Of a stretch of 37,507 nt of DNA, positions 23,458 to 35,890 are shown one piece after another. This DNA comes from Hyphomonadaceae bacterium. Its GTDB lineage: Bacteria > Pseudomonadota > Alphaproteobacteria > Caulobacterales > Hyphomonadaceae. The stretch lies in contig CANJXY010000014.1 in NCBI GenBank assembly GCA_947478925.1, positions 1 to 37,507 on the forward strand, in the 5' to 3' direction. The position numbers and the translations under genes were made by a program. The notes below the pieces were generated by a model. The model was not told the DNA's origin and made no database searches. It was given only the letters and a program-made list of their open reading frames with translations. The number at the start of each line of letters is the position of its first letter. Within the stretch, counting starts at the first letter, position 1.

Positions 23458-24330
23458 GTGCCACAGGCGCCCCTCTCGCAGTTGAAAGCCGAAGCGTCCG
23501 CTCTTGCGGGCGACCTCGGCACCCTGACCACGCACGCGCGCGCGGCGAGCGCGGCGCATCTGGGCTCCGCCGGCCGGCGCAAGTCGGGGATGGGTGAGAA
23601 CTTCTGGCAGTATCGCAGGCACACGACAGAGGACGGCGCGGATCGCATCGACTGGCGCAGGTCGGCGCGCGAGGAAAACCTGTTCGTGCGGGAGACAGAG
23701 CTGGAAACCGCGCGCACCTTCCTCTTCTGGGCCGATCCGAGCCAGGGCTTTCACTGGTCGAGCGCCGAGGCGATCCCGCACAAGGCGGACCGCGCCCTGC
23801 TACTTTGCATGGCGCTGGCCGGGGCGCTTTCGCGCTCGGGCGAACGTTGTGGCGCGCTGGGTGGCGGACGTGGACCCGTCTCTGGCGCGCGTGCTGCGGC
23901 GCGTGTCGGCGAGGACATCCGCAGTATTCGTGCTGATACGTCCTTCCCTCGCCCGCCGCGCGATAACGCTGCGGTAGTGGTGTGTAGCGATTTCTATTCG
24001 CCGCTGGCTGACTGGCGTTCGCGTCTGGCGCCGGTTGCCGCCAAATGTCGTGACGGCGTGCTACTGCAGGTGTGTGATCCGATCGAAGAAACCTATCCGT
24101 TCAATGGGCGCGTGCGGTTCTTCCGGCCCGGGCAGGATAGTGAACGCCTGATCGGTCGCGCGGAGTCGATCCGCGACGGCTATCTCGACAAGTTCGCCCA
24201 GCGCCGAAAAGACATGACGGATCTTGCCGCCGAAATCGGCTGGCGCTTTGTGAGCCATGTCACCAGCGAGCCTTCGCGTACGCCGCTTGGTGAACTTGCG
24301 TACGGCTTCACCAGCGGGGTCGCGGCTTGA
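23458..24330 (+). CDS. DUF58 domain protein
   Basis: 'GSAGRRKSGMGENFWQYRRHTTEDGADRIDWRRSAREENLFVRETELETARTFLFWADPSQGF' is the DUF58 core. Candidate GTG start at 23458; the track begins at TTG 23407 inside moxR. Confidence 0.85.
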   Translation: MPQAPLSQLKAEASALAGDLGTLTTHARAASAAHLGSAGRRKSGMGENFWQYRRHTTEDGADRIDWRRSAREENLFVRETELETARTFLFWADPSQGFHWSSAEAIPHKADRALLLCMALAGALSRSGERCGALGGGRGPVSGARAAARVGEDIRSIRADTSFPRPPRDNAAVVVCSDFYSPLADWRSRLAPVAAKCRDGVLLQVCDPIEETYPFNGRVRFFRPGQDSERLIGRAESIRDGYLDKFAQRRKDMTDLAAEIGWRFVSHVTSEPSRTPLGELAYGFTSGVAA

Positions 24331-27062
24331 GCCTGGGTCCGTTCCTGTTCCTGCAGCCATGGGCGCTGCTTGGGCTCATTGCCCTTCCCCTGCTTTGGCT
24401 TTTGCTGCGCGCGACGCCGCCGGAGCCAAAGCGGTTTGCGCTTCCATCGCTGGCGCTGCTGGAAGACCTCAAGCCGGAAGAAGAAACGCCGGCGCGGACG
24501 CCATGGTGGCTGTTGCTGCTGCGGATGATTGCACTCGCGCTCGCCATTCTCGGCTTCGCGCGACCGACCTGGGCGCCGAACGCACAAGTCAGCACCAACG
24601 GCGGTACTCTGATCGTGGTCGACGATGGCTGGACCAGCGCAGAACGCTGGCGCGATATCGTGCGCACCGCAACGGCTGCGGTCGATGAGGCCTCGCAGCA
24701 GGGCGGCACGCTGCATGTGATGTTCACCGCGCCGCGTGAAGTGGCGCGAGATGTTTCCGAGGCCCTCGATGCAGAGACGGCGCGACAACTTTTGCGCAAC
24801 GAGCGTCCTGCAGCGTGGCTGCCAGATCGCGTGGCGGCGCTGGCGGCGCTCGACAAGACACAGCTGAAGCCCGGCCGAATAATCTGGGTGACGGACGGTT
24901 TTGACCATGACAGCGCGGCGGCTTTCGCGCGGGGCCTCGCCGCCAAGGGCGCGACGGACGTGCGCATCACCCGGCCCAAGAGCGCGTTTGCGATCACGTC
25001 TGCGGACTCTTCTGCCGAAGGCGCTCGCGTCTCGGTCGTACGCGCGGACACAATACCGGGCATCACGGCGGACATCATCGCCGAAACCTCCGAGGGCGCC
25101 TCCATCGCCTCGACGCGCATTGCGTTTGATGGGGGAGCGACGACAGCGGAAGCAGCCTTCCCAATCCCAGCAGCGGCTTTGAACCGCGTGGCGCGGTTCC
25201 GCATTGGCGGATCGCCATCGGCTGGTGGCGTCTGGCTGTGGGATGACACGGCGCGCCGGCCGCATGTCGGGCTCGCGGATACGCAAAACGAGGCCCAGCC
25301 GCTGCTGGCGGAACACTATTATGCGCGCAAGGCGTTGCAGCCCTACGCGCAGCTGACCGAGAAGCCGTTGGCCAATCTGCTCGATACGCCGATCGACGCG
25401 ATCATCATGGGCGATCGCGGCACCATCGACGACGCGACCAAGACGCGGCTGGTGGACTGGATCGACAAGGGCGGCGTGCTGATCCGCTTTGCGGGGCCTC
25501 GCCTTGCGGCACAGGAAGGCGCGCTGACGCCAGTGGCGCTGCGGCCGACATCGCGCTCGCTCGGGTCCTCGCTATCGTGGGAGACGCCGCAGAAGGTTGC
25601 GGACTTCCCGGCGAGTTCGCCCTTCTTCGGCATTCCTAAGCCGGTTGATGCGGCTGTTCGCCAGCAGGTTCTGGCCCAGCCTTCAGCCGAACTCGAAAGC
25701 CAGACATGGGCCAAGCTCGAAGACGGCACGCCTCTGGTCACCGCAAAACGCATGGGACGCGGCGAGCTGATCCTGTTTCACGTTACGGCCGATCCGGATT
25801 GGTCCGACATGCCCTATACCGGCGCCTTCGTTGAGATGTTGCGCCGCTCTGTGGTGTCGGGCGGCGAACGCACCGGACCGTCCGCTCTGGGAACCGAAGG
25901 CACGCTTGCGCCGGCGCGCGTGCTCGATGGATTTGGCGTGCTAACGCCGCCGCAATCATCCGCAACGCCCATTCCCGCCGCGACTTTCCTCACCACGCGC
26001 CCCGGTCCGACAACACCGCCGGGCATCTATCTTGGGCCAGGCGGTGAGCGCGCACTGAACGCTGGAGCGCCTGCGCCGCAAGCGTTCGATGCGTGGCCGG
26101 CGGAAGTCTCGGTGACCCAGGAAGCAGCCATCGTCGAGCGCGCAGGGCTCGGCGGCTGGATGATCGGGCTCGCACTGGGGATCGTCGCGCTGGACCTGTT
26201 GATCGCGCTGGCGTTCGCCGGGCGTATCCCACGCTTCTTCGGCAAGAAGGCCGCTGCTGCCTTGTTGATGTTCGTCATTGGCGGCGCGCTGCTGAACGCG
26301 GCGCCGCCCGCTTCGGCGCAGACAACGGAACAGCTGGCGCGTGAAGCAGCGGCCCATCTGCGCTTCGCCTATGTCAAAACCGGCGACCGCCGGCTGGATG
26401 ACACGACCAAGGCTGGGCTGTTCGGCCTGTCCTACCAGCTCGGCCAGCGCACGTCGGTTGAGCCGGAGATGCCGCATGGGATCGACCTATCGCGCGACAG
26501 TCTCGAACTCTATCCGATGATCTACTACGCCGTGCCGCGCGATGCGAAGGCGCTGCCTCCCATGGCTGTTGCGAAGGTGAATGCCTATCTGCGGGCCGGC
26601 GGCGCGTTTGTGGTCGATACGCGTGATGCCGCGCCGGGCCGCGATGTATCGCAGGACCTCCAGCGATTGCTGCAGGGGATCGACGCGCCGCGCATGATAC
26701 CGGCGCCGGCGAACCACGTACTGACCAAGAGCTATTACCTGATCCGCTCCTTCCCCGGCCGTCTCAACGGACGCCTCTGGATCGAGAGCGGCGCGACGGA
26801 TCGCGATACACGGCGGGGCGATGGCGTCTCGGGCCTGTTCATCGGCGGATCGGACTGGGCCGGCGCGTGGGCGATCGACGACAAGACCGGACGGCCACTG
26901 CTGACGATGGATGGCGGCGAGCAGGCGCGCGAGATGTCTTACCGCTTCGGTATCAACCTCGTGATGTACATCCTCACCGGCAACTACAAGGAAGACCAGG
27001 TTCACATTCCCGATCTGCTTGAACGCCTCGGCACCTCGCGCGACAGGGCCAACGGACCATGA
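24327..27062 (+). CDS. membrane protein with BatA-type N-terminal domain and DUF4159-like C-terminal domain
   Basis: N-terminal 'GPFLFLQPWALLGLIALPLLWLLLRATPPEPKRFALPSLALLEDLKPEEETPARTPWWLLLLRMIALALAILGFARP'; C-terminal 'LRFAYVKTGDRRLDDTTKAGLFGLSYQLGQRTSVEPEMPHGIDLSRDSLELYPMIYYAVP'. TTG start overlaps the preceding TGA. Confidence 0.88.
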   Translation: MSLGPFLFLQPWALLGLIALPLLWLLLRATPPEPKRFALPSLALLEDLKPEEETPARTPWWLLLLRMIALALAILGFARPTWAPNAQVSTNGGTLIVVDDGWTSAERWRDIVRTATAAVDEASQQGGTLHVMFTAPREVARDVSEALDAETARQLLRNERPAAWLPDRVAALAALDKTQLKPGRIIWVTDGFDHDSAAAFARGLAAKGATDVRITRPKSAFAITSADSSAEGARVSVVRADTIPGITADIIAETSEGASIASTRIAFDGGATTAEAAFPIPAAALNRVARFRIGGSPSAGGVWLWDDTARRPHVGLADTQNEAQPLLAEHYYARKALQPYAQLTEKPLANLLDTPIDAIIMGDRGTIDDATKTRLVDWIDKGGVLIRFAGPRLAAQEGALTPVALRPTSRSLGSSLSWETPQKVADFPASSPFFGIPKPVDAAVRQQVLAQPSAELESQTWAKLEDGTPLVTAKRMGRGELILFHVTADPDWSDMPYTGAFVEMLRRSVVSGGERTGPSALGTEGTLAPARVLDGFGVLTPPQSSATPIPAATFLTTRPGPTTPPGIYLGPGGERALNAGAPAPQAFDAWPAEVSVTQEAAIVERAGLGGWMIGLALGIVALDLLIALAFAGRIPRFFGKKAAAALLMFVIGGALLNAAPPASAQTTEQLAREAAAHLRFAYVKTGDRRLDDTTKAGLFGLSYQLGQRTSVEPEMPHGIDLSRDSLELYPMIYYAVPRDAKALPPMAVAKVNAYLRAGGAFVVDTRDAAPGRDVSQDLQRLLQGIDAPRMIPAPANHVLTKSYYLIRSFPGRLNGRLWIESGATDRDTRRGDGVSGLFIGGSDWAGAWAIDDKTGRPLLTMDGGEQAREMSYRFGINLVMYILTGNYKEDQVHIPDLLERLGTSRDRANGP

Positions 27063-29104
27063 TGGATGCATCCCGTCTTGGCTTTGATCCGCTGATCCCG
27101 TGGCTGGCGCTGTGGGGACTGGTTGGCGTCGCTGTAGTGCTGTGGGGCGTCTATGTCACGCTGCGCGGCAAGGCGTGGCTGTTCCGCGCGCTGGCAATGA
27201 CGGTGCTGGCGGTAGCGCTGGCCAACCCGCAATGGATCCAGGAACAGCGCGAGCCGCTGAAGGATATCGTCGCGGTGGTGATGGACCGCTCGGAGAGCAT
27301 GAATTTCCGGGGGCGCACGGAGACGGCGCAGGCCGCCTATGACGCCATTCGCAGGCAGATCGAGGCTGACGATACGCTCGAACTGCGCATCGCCGAGACC
27401 GACCCCGGCGCCGATGGCACGGACATGTATATCGCGCTGCAGTCGGCGCTGTCGGATGCACCCCGCGACCGCATTGCCGGCGCGGTGATGATCACGGACG
27501 GCCAGATCCACGACATTCCGAAAGACACGAAGGACGCGCAGAAGCTGGGCCCGATCCATGCGATGATCGTGGGCGGCGACGACGAGATCGACCGCAATAT
27601 CGAGATCCAGTCGGCCCCGTCCTTCTCCATCATCGACCAGAAGGTCGAGATGCGCGTGCAGGTGAACGATCCGACCGCGAAAACTGTGCCGGTGGGCATC
27701 ACCATCAATGGCGAGGCGCAGCCCGACCAGACGGTGAAGGTCGGCGAGCCGCAGATGGTCTCGTTCACGCTGGACCAGCGTGGCGAGAACCTTGTGGTGC
27801 TGTCGGTTGACGGCATTCCGAACGAGCTGACGCTGGCGAACAACCTTGCCTCGGCGCGCATCTCGGGCGTGCAGGATCGGCTGCGCGTCCTGCTGATCAC
27901 GGGCGAACCGCACGCAGGGGCGCGGGTGTGGCGCGATCTGTTGAAGTCAGACCCGGCGGTCGACCTGGTGCACTTCACGATTTTGCGTCCGCCCAGCAAG
28001 TCGGACAACGTACCGACCGAAGAGATCGCGTTGATCGCTTTTCCGAAGGCGCAGCTGTTCCGTGAAAAGCTCGACGAATTCGACCTGGTGATCTTCGACC
28101 ACGAGTTGCGCCCGCAGGTTCTGGAAGAAGCCTATCTCGATCGTGTCGCTCGCTATGTCGAACAGGGCGGCGCATTGCTGGTCGCAGCCGGACCGCCCTA
28201 TCCGGGCTCGTACATGCTGTACAACACGCCCCTTGGCGGCGTGCTGCCGGGGCGCGCGACAGGCGAGATCGTCGATGGCAAGTTCGTTCCGCAGCTTACC
28301 GCGCTTGGGAAACGCCACTCGGTGACGGCGACGCTCTCCACGGAGGGCTGGGGTCCGTGGATGCGCTACATGAAGATGGAAAGCGGCAACGCCGAAGCGC
28401 TGATGCAGACGCCGGACGGGCATCCGCTGCTGCTGCTGAAACGCGTCGGCAAGGGCCGCGTGGCGAGTGTGATGTCGGACCAGCTCTGGCTGTGGGCGCG
28501 CGGCTATGATGGCGGCGGACCTTATGCCGAACTGATCCGCCGCACGGCGCACTGGCTGATGAAGGAGCCGGAGCTCGAGGAAGAACTGCTGAAGCTGGAA
28601 GCTGGCGCTGCGCCCGAGATCAAGGCGCGGCTGCAGACCATGTCGGATACGCCGGGCAAGCTGGAGCTGACCGGACCGGACGGCAAGACGCTGGAAACCG
28701 ACTGGTCGATGACATCGCCCGGACACTATCAGGCGACGCTGCCGGCGAACGGGCTTGGCCTCTATCGCGCCAAGAGCGGCAAGCTGAGCGCCGTCACGCT
28801 GCGCGGGCCGACGCATCCGCGCGAATATCTCGATCTGCGCGCGACGGCCGACAAGATCCAACCGCTGGCCACGGCGACGCTGGGCGGCGTCTACAAGCTC
28901 GGCGCCGATGGCACGCCCAACCTGCCGCGCATGCAACGGGTGGACGATCGTGGCAACGCCTCGGGTTCGGACTGGTTCGGCCTGCGCAAGCGCAACGCCT
29001 ATGCGGTGCGCGCGACGGAGAGCACGACGCTGCTGCCGGGCGTGATCGGCATGCTGCTGGCGTGCGCGTTCATGATGCTCGCGTGGCGGAGAGAGGGACG
29101 TTAG
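27059..29104 (+). CDS. large membrane protein with vWA-like and glutamine-amidotransferase-like regions
   Basis: Two N-terminal TM segments, 'VVMDRSESMNF' (DxSxS MIDAS-like), C-terminal TM 'LLPGVIGMLLACAFMMLAWRREGR'. ATGA overlap with the upstream gene. Confidence 0.8.
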   Translation: MMDASRLGFDPLIPWLALWGLVGVAVVLWGVYVTLRGKAWLFRALAMTVLAVALANPQWIQEQREPLKDIVAVVMDRSESMNFRGRTETAQAAYDAIRRQIEADDTLELRIAETDPGADGTDMYIALQSALSDAPRDRIAGAVMITDGQIHDIPKDTKDAQKLGPIHAMIVGGDDEIDRNIEIQSAPSFSIIDQKVEMRVQVNDPTAKTVPVGITINGEAQPDQTVKVGEPQMVSFTLDQRGENLVVLSVDGIPNELTLANNLASARISGVQDRLRVLLITGEPHAGARVWRDLLKSDPAVDLVHFTILRPPSKSDNVPTEEIALIAFPKAQLFREKLDEFDLVIFDHELRPQVLEEAYLDRVARYVEQGGALLVAAGPPYPGSYMLYNTPLGGVLPGRATGEIVDGKFVPQLTALGKRHSVTATLSTEGWGPWMRYMKMESGNAEALMQTPDGHPLLLLKRVGKGRVASVMSDQLWLWARGYDGGGPYAELIRRTAHWLMKEPELEEELLKLEAGAAPEIKARLQTMSDTPGKLELTGPDGKTLETDWSMTSPGHYQATLPANGLGLYRAKSGKLSAVTLRGPTHPREYLDLRATADKIQPLATATLGGVYKLGADGTPNLPRMQRVDDRGNASGSDWFGLRKRNAYAVRATESTTLLPGVIGMLLACAFMMLAWRREGR

Positions 29105-32156: not shown

Positions 32157-32360
32157 GGCTGAAATATCCTCCGGTTTGCAGTCTTTTTCGGGGGTGCGGC
32201 CGGAGATTTATGGTTTAGAAAGCGTTCCATCCGCACATCTTCGCGGAGAGGTCGTTCACTTGCTTCCGTCACACGATTTGCCCGGCATTCGGTTGGTCCG
32301 GCCCGTCAGGGCCGTTGGTCTCGGTTTGCCCGCAGTGACGGCCTCGGGGGAGCAGATCTG

Positions 32361-33422
32361 ATGGGCGACTCGGGCGGGACACTCTGGTCAATGCGAACCA
32401 AGACACGCCAGCCCTGGTGGTCCTTTCTTCCGGACGACGAGCTGCTGCAGATGCGGCTCAAGGATCTCGGCGTTTCGCTGGACGGCACATGGCTGCAAGG
32501 CAGCGTGGACACCCTGAACGGCGAACTGAAGCGCAAGGGTCTGGTTCAGGCGCACGCCTGGATTTCGGACGAGTGGTTCAGTCCCGATACGACGCCCGGC
32601 ATCGCCATTCCGTTCTATCTTGCCCACCCGCGCCTCGCCCGTCTTGAGCGCAAGATGTTCAAGGACGTGGAAGGCGGCACGCGCCGCCAGAGCCTGCAAA
32701 TCTTGCGGCACGAGGCGGGGCACATTGTTCAGCACGCCTACGCACTTCATCGGCGCCGCAAATGGCAGGACACGTTCGGCCGATCGTCGACTGCTTATCC
32801 CGAAAGCTATCGTCCCAATCCGAACAGCAAGAACTTCGTCCAGCACCTGCCGCGCTGGTATGCGCAGAGCCATCCGGACGAAGATTTTGCTGAGACCTTC
32901 GCCGTGTGGCTGACGCCCCGCTCCAACTGGAAGCAGCGCTATGCCGAATGGCCCGGAGCACTTGCGAAGCTGGAGTATGTGGACGCGCTGATGGGCGAGA
33001 TTGCCGGCGCCAAATCCGGACTGACGCGGCGCCTTGAAGTTGACCCGGTGGGCCGCCTCAACCGCACGCTGGCCGATCATTACCAACAGAAGCTGGCCTG
33101 GTACGCGGTCGACACCGACACGCGATACGACAAGGACCTGCTGCGCATCTTCTCGAACGACCCGCGCCATGCGCATCGTCCGCCGGCGTCGTCCTTCCTG
33201 CGTCACAACCGTGTCGCGATTCGCGAATCTGCCTGGCGCGTTTCCGGCGCCTACCAGATCGCACTCGACAATACGATTGATCTGCTTATCAGCAGGGCGC
33301 GGGCGCTGAAGCTGCGTGCGCCGGGCCGCGAGTATGAGCTGCGCAAATCGATGGTCCGCCTGTTGAACACCAAGGTGGCGCACCAGTTGCACGCCTCGCG
33401 CAGGCAATGGTTCGCTGTATGA
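32361..33422 (+). CDS. putative zinc-binding metallopeptidase
   Basis: 'LRHEAGHIVQHAYALH' HExxH motif, downstream acidic 'HPDEDFAETFAVWLTPR' as candidate third ligand. 353 aa, no signal peptide. Confidence 0.8.
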   Translation: MGDSGGTLWSMRTKTRQPWWSFLPDDELLQMRLKDLGVSLDGTWLQGSVDTLNGELKRKGLVQAHAWISDEWFSPDTTPGIAIPFYLAHPRLARLERKMFKDVEGGTRRQSLQILRHEAGHIVQHAYALHRRRKWQDTFGRSSTAYPESYRPNPNSKNFVQHLPRWYAQSHPDEDFAETFAVWLTPRSNWKQRYAEWPGALAKLEYVDALMGEIAGAKSGLTRRLEVDPVGRLNRTLADHYQQKLAWYAVDTDTRYDKDLLRIFSNDPRHAHRPPASSFLRHNRVAIRESAWRVSGAYQIALDNTIDLLISRARALKLRAPGREYELRKSMVRLLNTKVAHQLHASRRQWFAV

Positions 33423-34441
33423 GTCCACTCCGCATCCTGTGCCTGGCGCACCCCGACCTGATTCCTCCCGACAACATCGCGGAGATGACGGAAAACGAGG
33501 CGTATGTCTGGAAGACCGAGTACGACGTCATCAAGACATTGAAAGGCAACGGACATGACGTGCGCATGATTGGCGTGCAGTCCGAGCTGACGCCGATCCG
33601 CGATGCAGTCGAGGACTGGAAACCGGATATCGTCTTCAACCTGCTCGAGGAATTTCACGGCGAGACGCTTTACGCACAGAACGTTGTCGGCCTGCTTGAG
33701 CTTCTGCGCGTGCCCTACACCGGCTGCAATCCGCGCGGCCTCATGCTGGCGCGCGGCAAAGATCTTTCGAAGAAGCTGCTAAAGTATCACCGCGTGCCTG
33801 TGCCGGCGTTCGCTGTGTTCCCGATCGGCAAGAAGGTGCGCCGCCCCGCGCGCCTCAGATTCCCGCTCATCGTAAAGAGCCTGTGGGAGGATGCGTCCCT
33901 CGGTATCGCGCAGGCCTCCATCGTCGACACGGACGAGAAACTGGCCGAACGCGTGGCCTTCATCCACAAACGCCTCAACACGCCCGCCATTGCCGAACAG
34001 TTCATCGACGGTCGCGAGATCTATGTCGGCGTGCTTGGCAATGACCGTATCCAGGTACTGCCGGTGTGGGAGCTGAGCTTTAGCAATCTGGCCGACGGCG
34101 CACACGCGATCGCTACCGAGAAGGTGAAACACGATCCGATCTATCAGGAAAAGCGCGGTATCCTCCAGGGACCGGCGCAGGATCTCTCTCCTAAGGTCGT
34201 AACGAAGATCCGCACGCTGGCCAAGCGCATCGCGCACACTCTGGAGCTCGACGGCTATGGCCGTATCGACTTCCGCCTGTCGAAAGACGACGTGCCTTAC
34301 TTCATCGAGGCCAACCCGAACCCCGAGATCGCTTCAAGCCAGGAGTATGCTCAGGCCGCCCTACACGCAGGCGTCAGTTATGCCGACCTGCTGAACAAGA
34401 TCGTGGCGCTTGGCCTGAAGCGTGCGGGCGTGGAAACCTAA
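33419..34441 (+). CDS. ATP-grasp protein, D-alanine-D-alanine ligase-like
   Basis: 'LPYTGCNPRGLMLARGKDLSKKLLKYHRVPVPAF' (as VPYTGCNPRG), 'FPLIVKSLWEDASLGIAQASIVD', 'IAEQFIDGREIYVGVLG', 'YGRIDFRLSKDDVPYFIEANPNPEIA'. ATG 33419 overlaps the metallopeptidase TGA. Confidence 0.9.
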   Translation: MSPLRILCLAHPDLIPPDNIAEMTENEAYVWKTEYDVIKTLKGNGHDVRMIGVQSELTPIRDAVEDWKPDIVFNLLEEFHGETLYAQNVVGLLELLRVPYTGCNPRGLMLARGKDLSKKLLKYHRVPVPAFAVFPIGKKVRRPARLRFPLIVKSLWEDASLGIAQASIVDTDEKLAERVAFIHKRLNTPAIAEQFIDGREIYVGVLGNDRIQVLPVWELSFSNLADGAHAIATEKVKHDPIYQEKRGILQGPAQDLSPKVVTKIRTLAKRIAHTLELDGYGRIDFRLSKDDVPYFIEANPNPEIASSQEYAQAALHAGVSYADLLNKIVALGLKRAGVET

Positions 34442-34444
34442 GCC

Positions 34445-35749
34445 TCAGCCGCTTGGGTCGTCGTCCACCGGCTCGACCTTGCGGACCAGCACCTTGTCGA
34501 CGCGTCGACCGTCCATGTCGACGACCTCGAAGATCAATGGGGACTGCTCAACCTTGTCGCCTTCTTTAGGCATGGCGCGCAACAGGTGCATAACAAGTCC
34601 AGCGACCGTCGAGAAGCCTTCCTCGCCATTGAGACCGCGCACACCGACGAGTTGCTCGAACTCGTCCACCGGTGTCATGCCATCTACAAGCCAGCTACCA
34701 TCGTCGCGCTTCACCGGCGGGGACAGTCCCTCATCAATGCCGAGCGCATCGTCACCCGCGATCGATTCCAGAAGGTCCGCCGCCGTTACCAAACCTAGGA
34801 CCGAGCCGTACTCGTCCGACACGATCACCATACGCACCGGATTGCCCTTCATGGCCTCCAGCAGGCGCAGAACCGGCATGGTGTCAGGCACGAACACCGG
34901 CGGATGCATCACGGCTTTGAGGTCGATCTTGCCGGTGCGCGCAAGGTGGGTGAACAGCTCCTTGCCCTGCACAATACCGATGACATCATCGGCGTTTCCT
35001 GCTGCGACCGGAAAGCGGGCGTGGCCACTGTCGCCGATCTCTTTGAGCAGATCCTCACGCATCGTTTCGGGATCGAGCCACACCATTTCGGTGCGCGGTG
35101 TCATGATGGTCTTCACGGTGCGATCTCCAAGGCGCATGACGCCCTGGATCATCTCGCGCTCTTCTTCCTCGATCACGCCGGCTTTTTCGCCTTCGACGAT
35201 GAGTGACTGGAGTTCTTCCTCAGTCACATCTTCCTGACGCGTGCGATTGAGACCGAGCAAACTGAGCACGCCTTCAGTTGTCATGCGCAGCAGCCATACG
35301 ACAGGAGACGCGCCGCGCTCGATCAATGCCATGAGCGGCGCCATTATCGCTGCCATCGGTTCTGGCGCGGCCAGCGCAATACGTTTGGGAATCAATTCGC
35401 CAAGGATGAGCGATAGCAACGTGGTCAGGACGATCACGACGCCAAACGCGATCTCGGGCGCGTAGGGTGCAACGGCGGGATGGAGACCCGCGATTACGGG
35501 CGACAGATCGTCGGAGAGCGCCGTAGCGCTGTACGCGCCCGCGATCACGCCAATGGCGGTGATGCCGATCTGCACGGTCGATAGAAGCTTGGAGGGATCC
35601 TCAAGCAGCCGCAGCGCGACCTTGGCCCCGCTATTGCCCTTGTCAGCCATGGCCTTCAGGCGAGGCCGGCGCGAAGAAACGATCGCCATCTCCGACAGCG
35701 CAAACACGCCGTTGAGCAGGATCAGCAGTACGAGGATCAGAAGTTCCAT
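34445..35749 (-). CDS. CNNM/HlyC-CorC family protein (DUF21 + CBS pair + CorC_HlyC domain)
   Basis: ATG at 35749 (MELLILVLLILLNGVFALSEMAIVSSRRPRLKAMADKGNSGAKVAL) with GGAG upstream; 'TVKTIMTPRTEMVWLD', 'ARFPVAAGNADDVIGIVQGKELF', 'RMVIVSDEYGSVLGLVTAADLLE'. The track ORF extends to 35830. Confidence 0.93.
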   Translation of the reverse strand: MELLILVLLILLNGVFALSEMAIVSSRRPRLKAMADKGNSGAKVALRLLEDPSKLLSTVQIGITAIGVIAGAYSATALSDDLSPVIAGLHPAVAPYAPEIAFGVVIVLTTLLSLILGELIPKRIALAAPEPMAAIMAPLMALIERGASPVVWLLRMTTEGVLSLLGLNRTRQEDVTEEELQSLIVEGEKAGVIEEEEREMIQGVMRLGDRTVKTIMTPRTEMVWLDPETMREDLLKEIGDSGHARFPVAAGNADDVIGIVQGKELFTHLARTGKIDLKAVMHPPVFVPDTMPVLRLLEAMKGNPVRMVIVSDEYGSVLGLVTAADLLESIAGDDALGIDEGLSPPVKRDDGSWLVDGMTPVDEFEQLVGVRGLNGEEGFSTVAGLVMHLLRAMPKEGDKVEQSPLIFEVVDMDGRRVDKVLVRKVEPVDDDPSG

Positions 35750-35890
35750 GGACTCCGCGGCCAGAACGGCCGTGTGATTGGCCCGGGTCAGGTCCGGAGG
35801 CCGCTTTTTTGCTCTACTTGCCCGCTTCATTCAACGGGTCCGCAGACCGATCGCATGGCGGTTTTATCCAAATATCCCCTGTTTTCCGGA

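Follow-up and report, generated by a model that had tools for sequence, protein, structure and literature searches.

The window, meaning the entire stretch of DNA analyzed here (37,507 nucleotides), is contig C14 of a Hyphomonadaceae assembly of 3.9 Mb in 344 contigs. It carries a zinc metallopeptidase gene followed by an overlapping gene for a stand-alone ATP-grasp ligase; the arrangement as it stands in the window is hereafter called T1. The features of the pair are as follows:

32346..32351, forward strand: putative Shine-Dalgarno-like GGGGAG, 9 nt 5' of the peptidase ATG, read from the sequence
32361..33422, forward strand: zinc metallopeptidase with a Peptidase_Mx-like core, 353 aa (ORF; PF15887, 34.4 bits; orthologue alignment)
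32709..32723, forward strand: HEAGH zinc-binding motif, peptidase H117-H121
32877..32903, forward strand: DEDFAETFA, peptidase residues 173-181 (E174-F180 in 64/64 orthologues)
33399..33419, forward strand: RRQWFAV-stop, C-terminal tail of the peptidase and T1 signature, with low model confidence
33419..33422, forward strand: ATGA, joining the ligase start codon and the peptidase stop codon (an overlap shared by most T1 and T2 loci)
33419..34441, forward strand: stand-alone ATP-grasp ligase of 340 aa with the fold of Ddl, distinct from Ddl itself
34262..34270, forward strand: ligase R282-I-D284, equivalent by alignment to Ddl R255 and D257 (oxyanion/Mg)
34313..34330, forward strand: ligase NPNPEI (N299-I304), Ddl counterpart N-T-x-P-G-M, with E303 in place of Ddl G276

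Most of what the sequence-only reading had described at this locus was confirmed, including the peptidase ORF with HEAGH and a downstream DEDFAETFA, the ATG/TGA overlap of the two genes, and the lack of mur and fts genes (none among the ORFs at 25-37.5 kb, read by eye). Its ligase length of 344 aa was corrected to 340 aa: the longer form starts at 33407, which clashes with the overlap given in the same reading, and 33419 is the start kept in relatives. The flanking ORFs (window 24327-29104 and 34445-35830), named by eye, comprise two large membrane/VWA-type ORFs upstream of the pair and a CNNM/hemolysin-C-like ORF downstream on the opposite strand.

The peptidase, in which no signal peptide was seen by eye, exceeds the gathering cutoff of PF15887 (Peptidase_Mx; 27 bits) with a match that covers only positions 84-164 of 236. 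It shares with this family an HExxH and DFAETF-type core (~30% identity over ~100 aa); however, ten typical alphaproteobacterial Peptidase_Mx members that we read have neither a nearby ligase nor an RRxWxA[LV] tail, and several of them have N-terminal zinc-ribbon-like cysteines. H117, E118, G120, and H121, as well as HExxH together with the distal Glu (DFAE), are present in 64/64 orthologues, giving no sequence sign that the HEAGH protein is catalytically dead, an outcome that the earlier reading had allowed for. Based on zincin families, the third zinc ligand is predicted to be E178. The peptidase model has a pLDDT of 81.7 overall, with a good core and a poor C-terminus. A PDB search with the peptidase sequence gave no significant match, and the best fold matches were M34-type zincins such as PPEP (E about 0.3, non-significant).

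Conservation and arrangements of the pair

Among 15 congeneric genomes, including that of the window, both genes are present together in 13 and both are missing in 2. Identities are mostly 81-89% for the peptidase and 87-93% for the ligase, decreasing to 71/61% and 83/73%, respectively, in the two farthest congeners. Given these high identities and the joint presence or absence of the two genes, the pair is real and not a chance association. None of the other genera sampled from this family and order has the peptidase. A scan for peptidase relatives over genomes of 84,980 species returned at least 561 confirmed stretches, and the best 80 of these were read; they come from Hyphomonadaceae, Dongia and other Rhodospirillaceae, Xanthobacteraceae, Bradyrhizobium, and Gemmatimonadota. 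Within these best 80, the ligase is the next gene downstream of the peptidase in all 79 scorable loci (the 80th is cut by a contig end), mostly with a 4-nt overlap; the ligase start lies within ~50 nt in 77 loci and at 136 nt in the other two.

When the ligase was used as the query in 385 genomes of the class, strong matches were all paired and matches of 30-33% identity were unpaired. Plasmid searches gave no match to the peptidase and, for the ligase, only ~30% identical ATP-grasp or Van/Ddl genes; three of these were inspected and none has an adjoining annotated peptidase. Such plasmid genes include ATP-grasp genes of rhizobial plasmids (e.g., pNGR234a; L051, L053, and others) that share ~31% identity with the ligase and have no annotated peptidase adjoining them, and a 31% identical Ddl-like ligase on a Thioflavicoccus mobilis plasmid (L052), whose neighbours are genes for the biosynthesis of diaminobutyrate and diaminopropionate (SbnA-like) and a radical SAM gene of the KamA family. 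Two tandem ATP-grasp genes in a genome of the same order (L029, G044:C42) show 25-30% identity to the ligase of the window.

In Gemmatimonadota, matches at E<=1e-5 occurred in 110 of 298 genomes, and we read 82 loci. Five arrangements were distinguished. In addition to T1, these are T2, with a tail-less peptidase ~38% identical to that of T1 and an overlapping ligase downstream; T3, with a short gap between the two genes; T4, in which peptidase and ligase are convergent neighbours; and T5, in which the ligase comes first and overlaps a different peptidase, a zinc-ribbon Peptidase_Mx protein. The T5 sample consists only of the six weak matches of this type that were fetched and gives no measure of prevalence. 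The ligase reaches the profile threshold in 79/82 of the loci read, and 80/82 are paired. One locus (L246) holds a ligase fragment at a contig edge, in another (L250) the stretch ends too early to tell, and a T4 locus (L252) has the peptidase and no ligase within the stretch read. The T3 pairs L245 and L247 lie near ORFs that, by eye, resemble an M20-type peptidase and a sugar nucleotidyltransferase.

In the ligase tree, each type forms one clade, T1 is divided by phylum, canonical Ddl proteins are separate, and all paired ligases cluster together with moderate support (91/71). Peptidase and ligase distances are correlated (r=0.88 overall, 0.70 within types). Because T5 ligases are ~40% identical to those of T1, whereas the peptidases are only ~25% identical and have zinc ribbons, the sequences suggest an exchange of partner, with unequal rates as an alternative. 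The earlier reading had named rare adjacency in relatives as evidence against a functional pair; the opposite was found in the loci counted above (79/79 and 80/82). Because both genes were kept through five arrangements, including convergent and ligase-first orders, their retention through changes of order and strand across two phyla is strong evidence of a joint function.

The C-terminal tail of the T1 peptidase

T1 peptidases end in RRxW[IF]A[LVM]-COOH, with the two Arg present in 76 and 78 of 79 proteins, Trp in 75/79, and Ala in 78/79. This conserved T1 tail is a new finding of the present analysis. Its conservation matches that of the active site (~4.1-4.3 bits at R, R, and A), and the region has low model confidence and appears to be disordered. 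The tail Arg and Ala residues are encoded by several synonymous codons, and the tail is still conserved where the ligase start is 10-136 nt downstream. Codon variety and conservation despite such spacers rule out a ribosome-site constraint as its cause and identify the tail as a protein-level feature of T1. The tail was found in none of the 41 T2-T5 peptidases (0/41), which are nevertheless paired, ruling it out as a universal ligase substrate.

Two roles of the tail were considered. It is conceivable, though we would not expect it, that the tail is a docking site for the ligase, used for assembly during co-translation, or a ligase substrate, with an amine joined to its C-terminal carboxylate in the way that RimK extends the RpsF C-terminus (PMC11957791). 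Conservation equal to that of the active site, low model confidence, synonymous codon variation, persistence where the ligase is 10-136 nt away, and absence from the ten unpaired Peptidase_Mx proteins are all consistent with such a role; tail-less pairing in T2, T3, T4, and T5 means that it would not be a general substrate. Somewhat less likely, the tail marks the peptidase for degradation by ClpXP, or by a different AAA protease, and so keeps its level in check. The MuA tag RRKKAI is recognized by ClpXP (PMC8138137, PMC5143411), and the exactly C-terminal position, the low model confidence, and a likeness to this tag favour the idea. However, the likeness was judged by eye, the conserved Trp is absent from the MuA tag, and a degradation signal would account for the tail and not for the pairing.

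Relationship of the ligase to Ddl

The ligase matches the Ddl C-terminal domain (PF07478) with 89.5 bits and has the predicted fold of Ddl (pLDDT 88.6, Foldseek E 4.6e-25). Residues K97, K144, E187, R255, D257, E270, and N272 of E. coli DdlB are kept as K114, K153, E200, R282, D284, E297, and N299. These ATP/Mg residues are invariant or nearly so among orthologues (R282 and D284 in 64/64 by alignment). The D-Ala-binding motifs are not kept: GGxSxERxVS, which holds Ddl E15 for D-Ala1, occurs in 0/64 pair ligases and 6/6 canonical Ddl rows, HGxxGEDG and NTxPGM occur in 0/64, and NTxPGM is again present in 6/6 canonical Ddl rows. At the position of Ddl S150, pair ligases have Ala, Gly, or Ser. 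The position of Ddl G276 (E303) is Glu in 64/64 aligned orthologues and, across the types, Glu in most T1, Asp in some Gemmatimonadota, and aromatic in T2-T5. The position of Ddl L282 is acidic in all types (the nearly invariant acidic E309). From sequence, we infer an acidic acceptor site, which suggests a cationic or amine acceptor.

A separate, better-scoring Ddl is encoded in 12/12 pair-bearing genomes outside the congeners (four of them single-contig) and a separate Ddl in 11/12 pair-bearing congeners. No ddl was found in the MAG of the window itself. When the ddl-ftsQ-ftsA-ftsZ stretch of a relative was compared with this assembly (G000), the only match was in ftsZ, with none in ddl, ftsQ, or ftsA; this match stops 2 nt short of the end of contig C210 (L155), which breaks off inside ftsZ. 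The missing ddl is therefore most likely an assembly gap, and its absence was rejected as a sign that the pair ligase replaces Ddl. In a congener that keeps the pair (G010, contig C63, L154), ftsQ is preceded by only ~26 recognizable ddl codons, reflecting either misassembly or loss of ddl. The lack of any other ddl in the genome, which the sequence-only reading had set as part of a refutation, is seen in the window's own MAG, where a gap is the likely cause, and the view of that reading of the ligase as Ddl-like but not the housekeeping Ddl held up, given the separate Ddl elsewhere and the missing D-Ala motifs.

Judged by these sequence features, the pair ligase is not Ddl: it has the same fold and the same ATP/Mg residues but lacks the D-Ala-binding motifs, lies on a separate branch of the tree, and scores far below the cutoff of NCBIfam TIGR01205 (115.6 vs 245.65 bits), a cutoff that is also missed by the presumed true Ddl of Bradyrhizobium (181-184 bits). 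It is improbable that the ligase serves as an auxiliary enzyme for D-Ala-D-Ala (or D-Ala-D-X) synthesis, with its peptidase partner handling cell-wall peptides. Ddl enzymes are indeed its best named relatives by profile, sequence, and fold, but the low score, the loss of D-Ala-binding motifs in 64/64, the better-scoring Ddl in 12/12 tested genomes, and the lack of observed mur or fts neighbours argue against it.

Proposed function and significance

The reading that we favour, with moderate confidence, is a two-enzyme module that acts on one amide-linked peptide, polymer, or protein product other than a peptidoglycan precursor. The Ddl-fold ATP-grasp protein would form an amide bond via an acyl-phosphate, with substrates other than a pair of D-alanines, and the co-translated cytosolic zinc metallopeptidase would cut that product or a precursor of it, as a trimming, priming, or reversal step. 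A peptide, a polymer, or a protein modification would be the outcome. We infer here that both enzymes are active, that both act on one product, and what kind of product it is. The shared-product model is supported by the conserved pairing, the gene overlap, the intact catalytic residues, the separate Ddl, and the loss of D-Ala motifs. Against it stand the lack of a third lineage-common gene that points to a pathway (no third gene common to lineages was found near the pair), unpaired Ddl-like relatives that show the fold in varied roles, the T4 locus without a ligase, and the moderate support for the grouping of paired ligases. Alternatively, the peptidase might activate or stabilize the ligase instead of acting on a product.

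A far-reaching extension of the shared-product model, which we regard as speculative, is that the pair represents an undescribed class of ligase-peptidase modules in two phyla, in which the two enzymes run a make-and-break cycle on an amide polymer or on a protein modification of a new kind, with participation of the T1 tail. The ligase acceptor site would then be acidic and, jointly, the T1 tail would be a docking site or the target of ligation.

Known systems that combine synthesis and cleavage offer partial parallels. In rimABK of Pseudomonas, RimK extends the C-terminus of RpsF, and the protease RimB removes residues and stimulates the ligase (PMC11957791). The pair resembles RimB-RimK in having a protease and an ATP-grasp ligase in one operon, whereas RimB is a retropepsin-like aspartic protease and the pair's peptidase an HExxH zincin; the pair ligase scores 18.2 bits against the RimK family (PF08443), below the cutoff of 21. 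In cyanophycin synthetase CphA1, a metallopeptidase-like site makes primers inside the synthetase, so that one product is handled both by this site and by ATP-dependent amide synthesis (PMC9262961). CphA1 is, however, a single fused polypeptide with an inverted HxxEH and a distant M16-like fold, unlike the two genes and HExxH zincin of the pair. By analogy, the pair may work like RimB-RimK and cyanophycin synthetase, with a ligase and a hydrolase that oppose each other or cooperate, as a member of neither. The Anbu operon (ATP-grasp, alpha-E, transglutaminase, and Ntn hydrolase; role unproven; PMC6376114) likewise combines a ligase and a hydrolase, but with another hydrolase class, another ATP-grasp type, and four genes.

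RiPP maturation, with side-chain links installed by the ATP-grasp enzyme on a precursor peptide whose leader the peptidase would remove, is likewise improbable. Graspetide loci do combine ATP-grasp ligases with occasional metallopeptidases (PMC8939145), but neither a small ORF common to lineages within 1.5 kb of the pair nor another common neighbour was found, and the ligase fold is Ddl-type. With regard to anti-phage defence, no PADLOC model matched.

The literature searched holds no description of the pair; an earlier mention may exist, most likely in Iyer et al. 2009 on amidoligases, which lies outside that literature. Enzyme pairs in which one partner makes a bond and the other cuts it are rare, and such a design is informative, as in RimB-RimK and cyanophycin synthetase. 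The pair occurs in at least several hundred sequenced genomes, including the easily grown Bradyrhizobium, and because relatives of the ligase are often named D-alanine-D-alanine ligase, misannotation of the pair ligase is probably common. Three features provide cheap and concrete handles on the function of the pair: the motif in the tail, the acidic acceptor site, and the possible exchange of partners.
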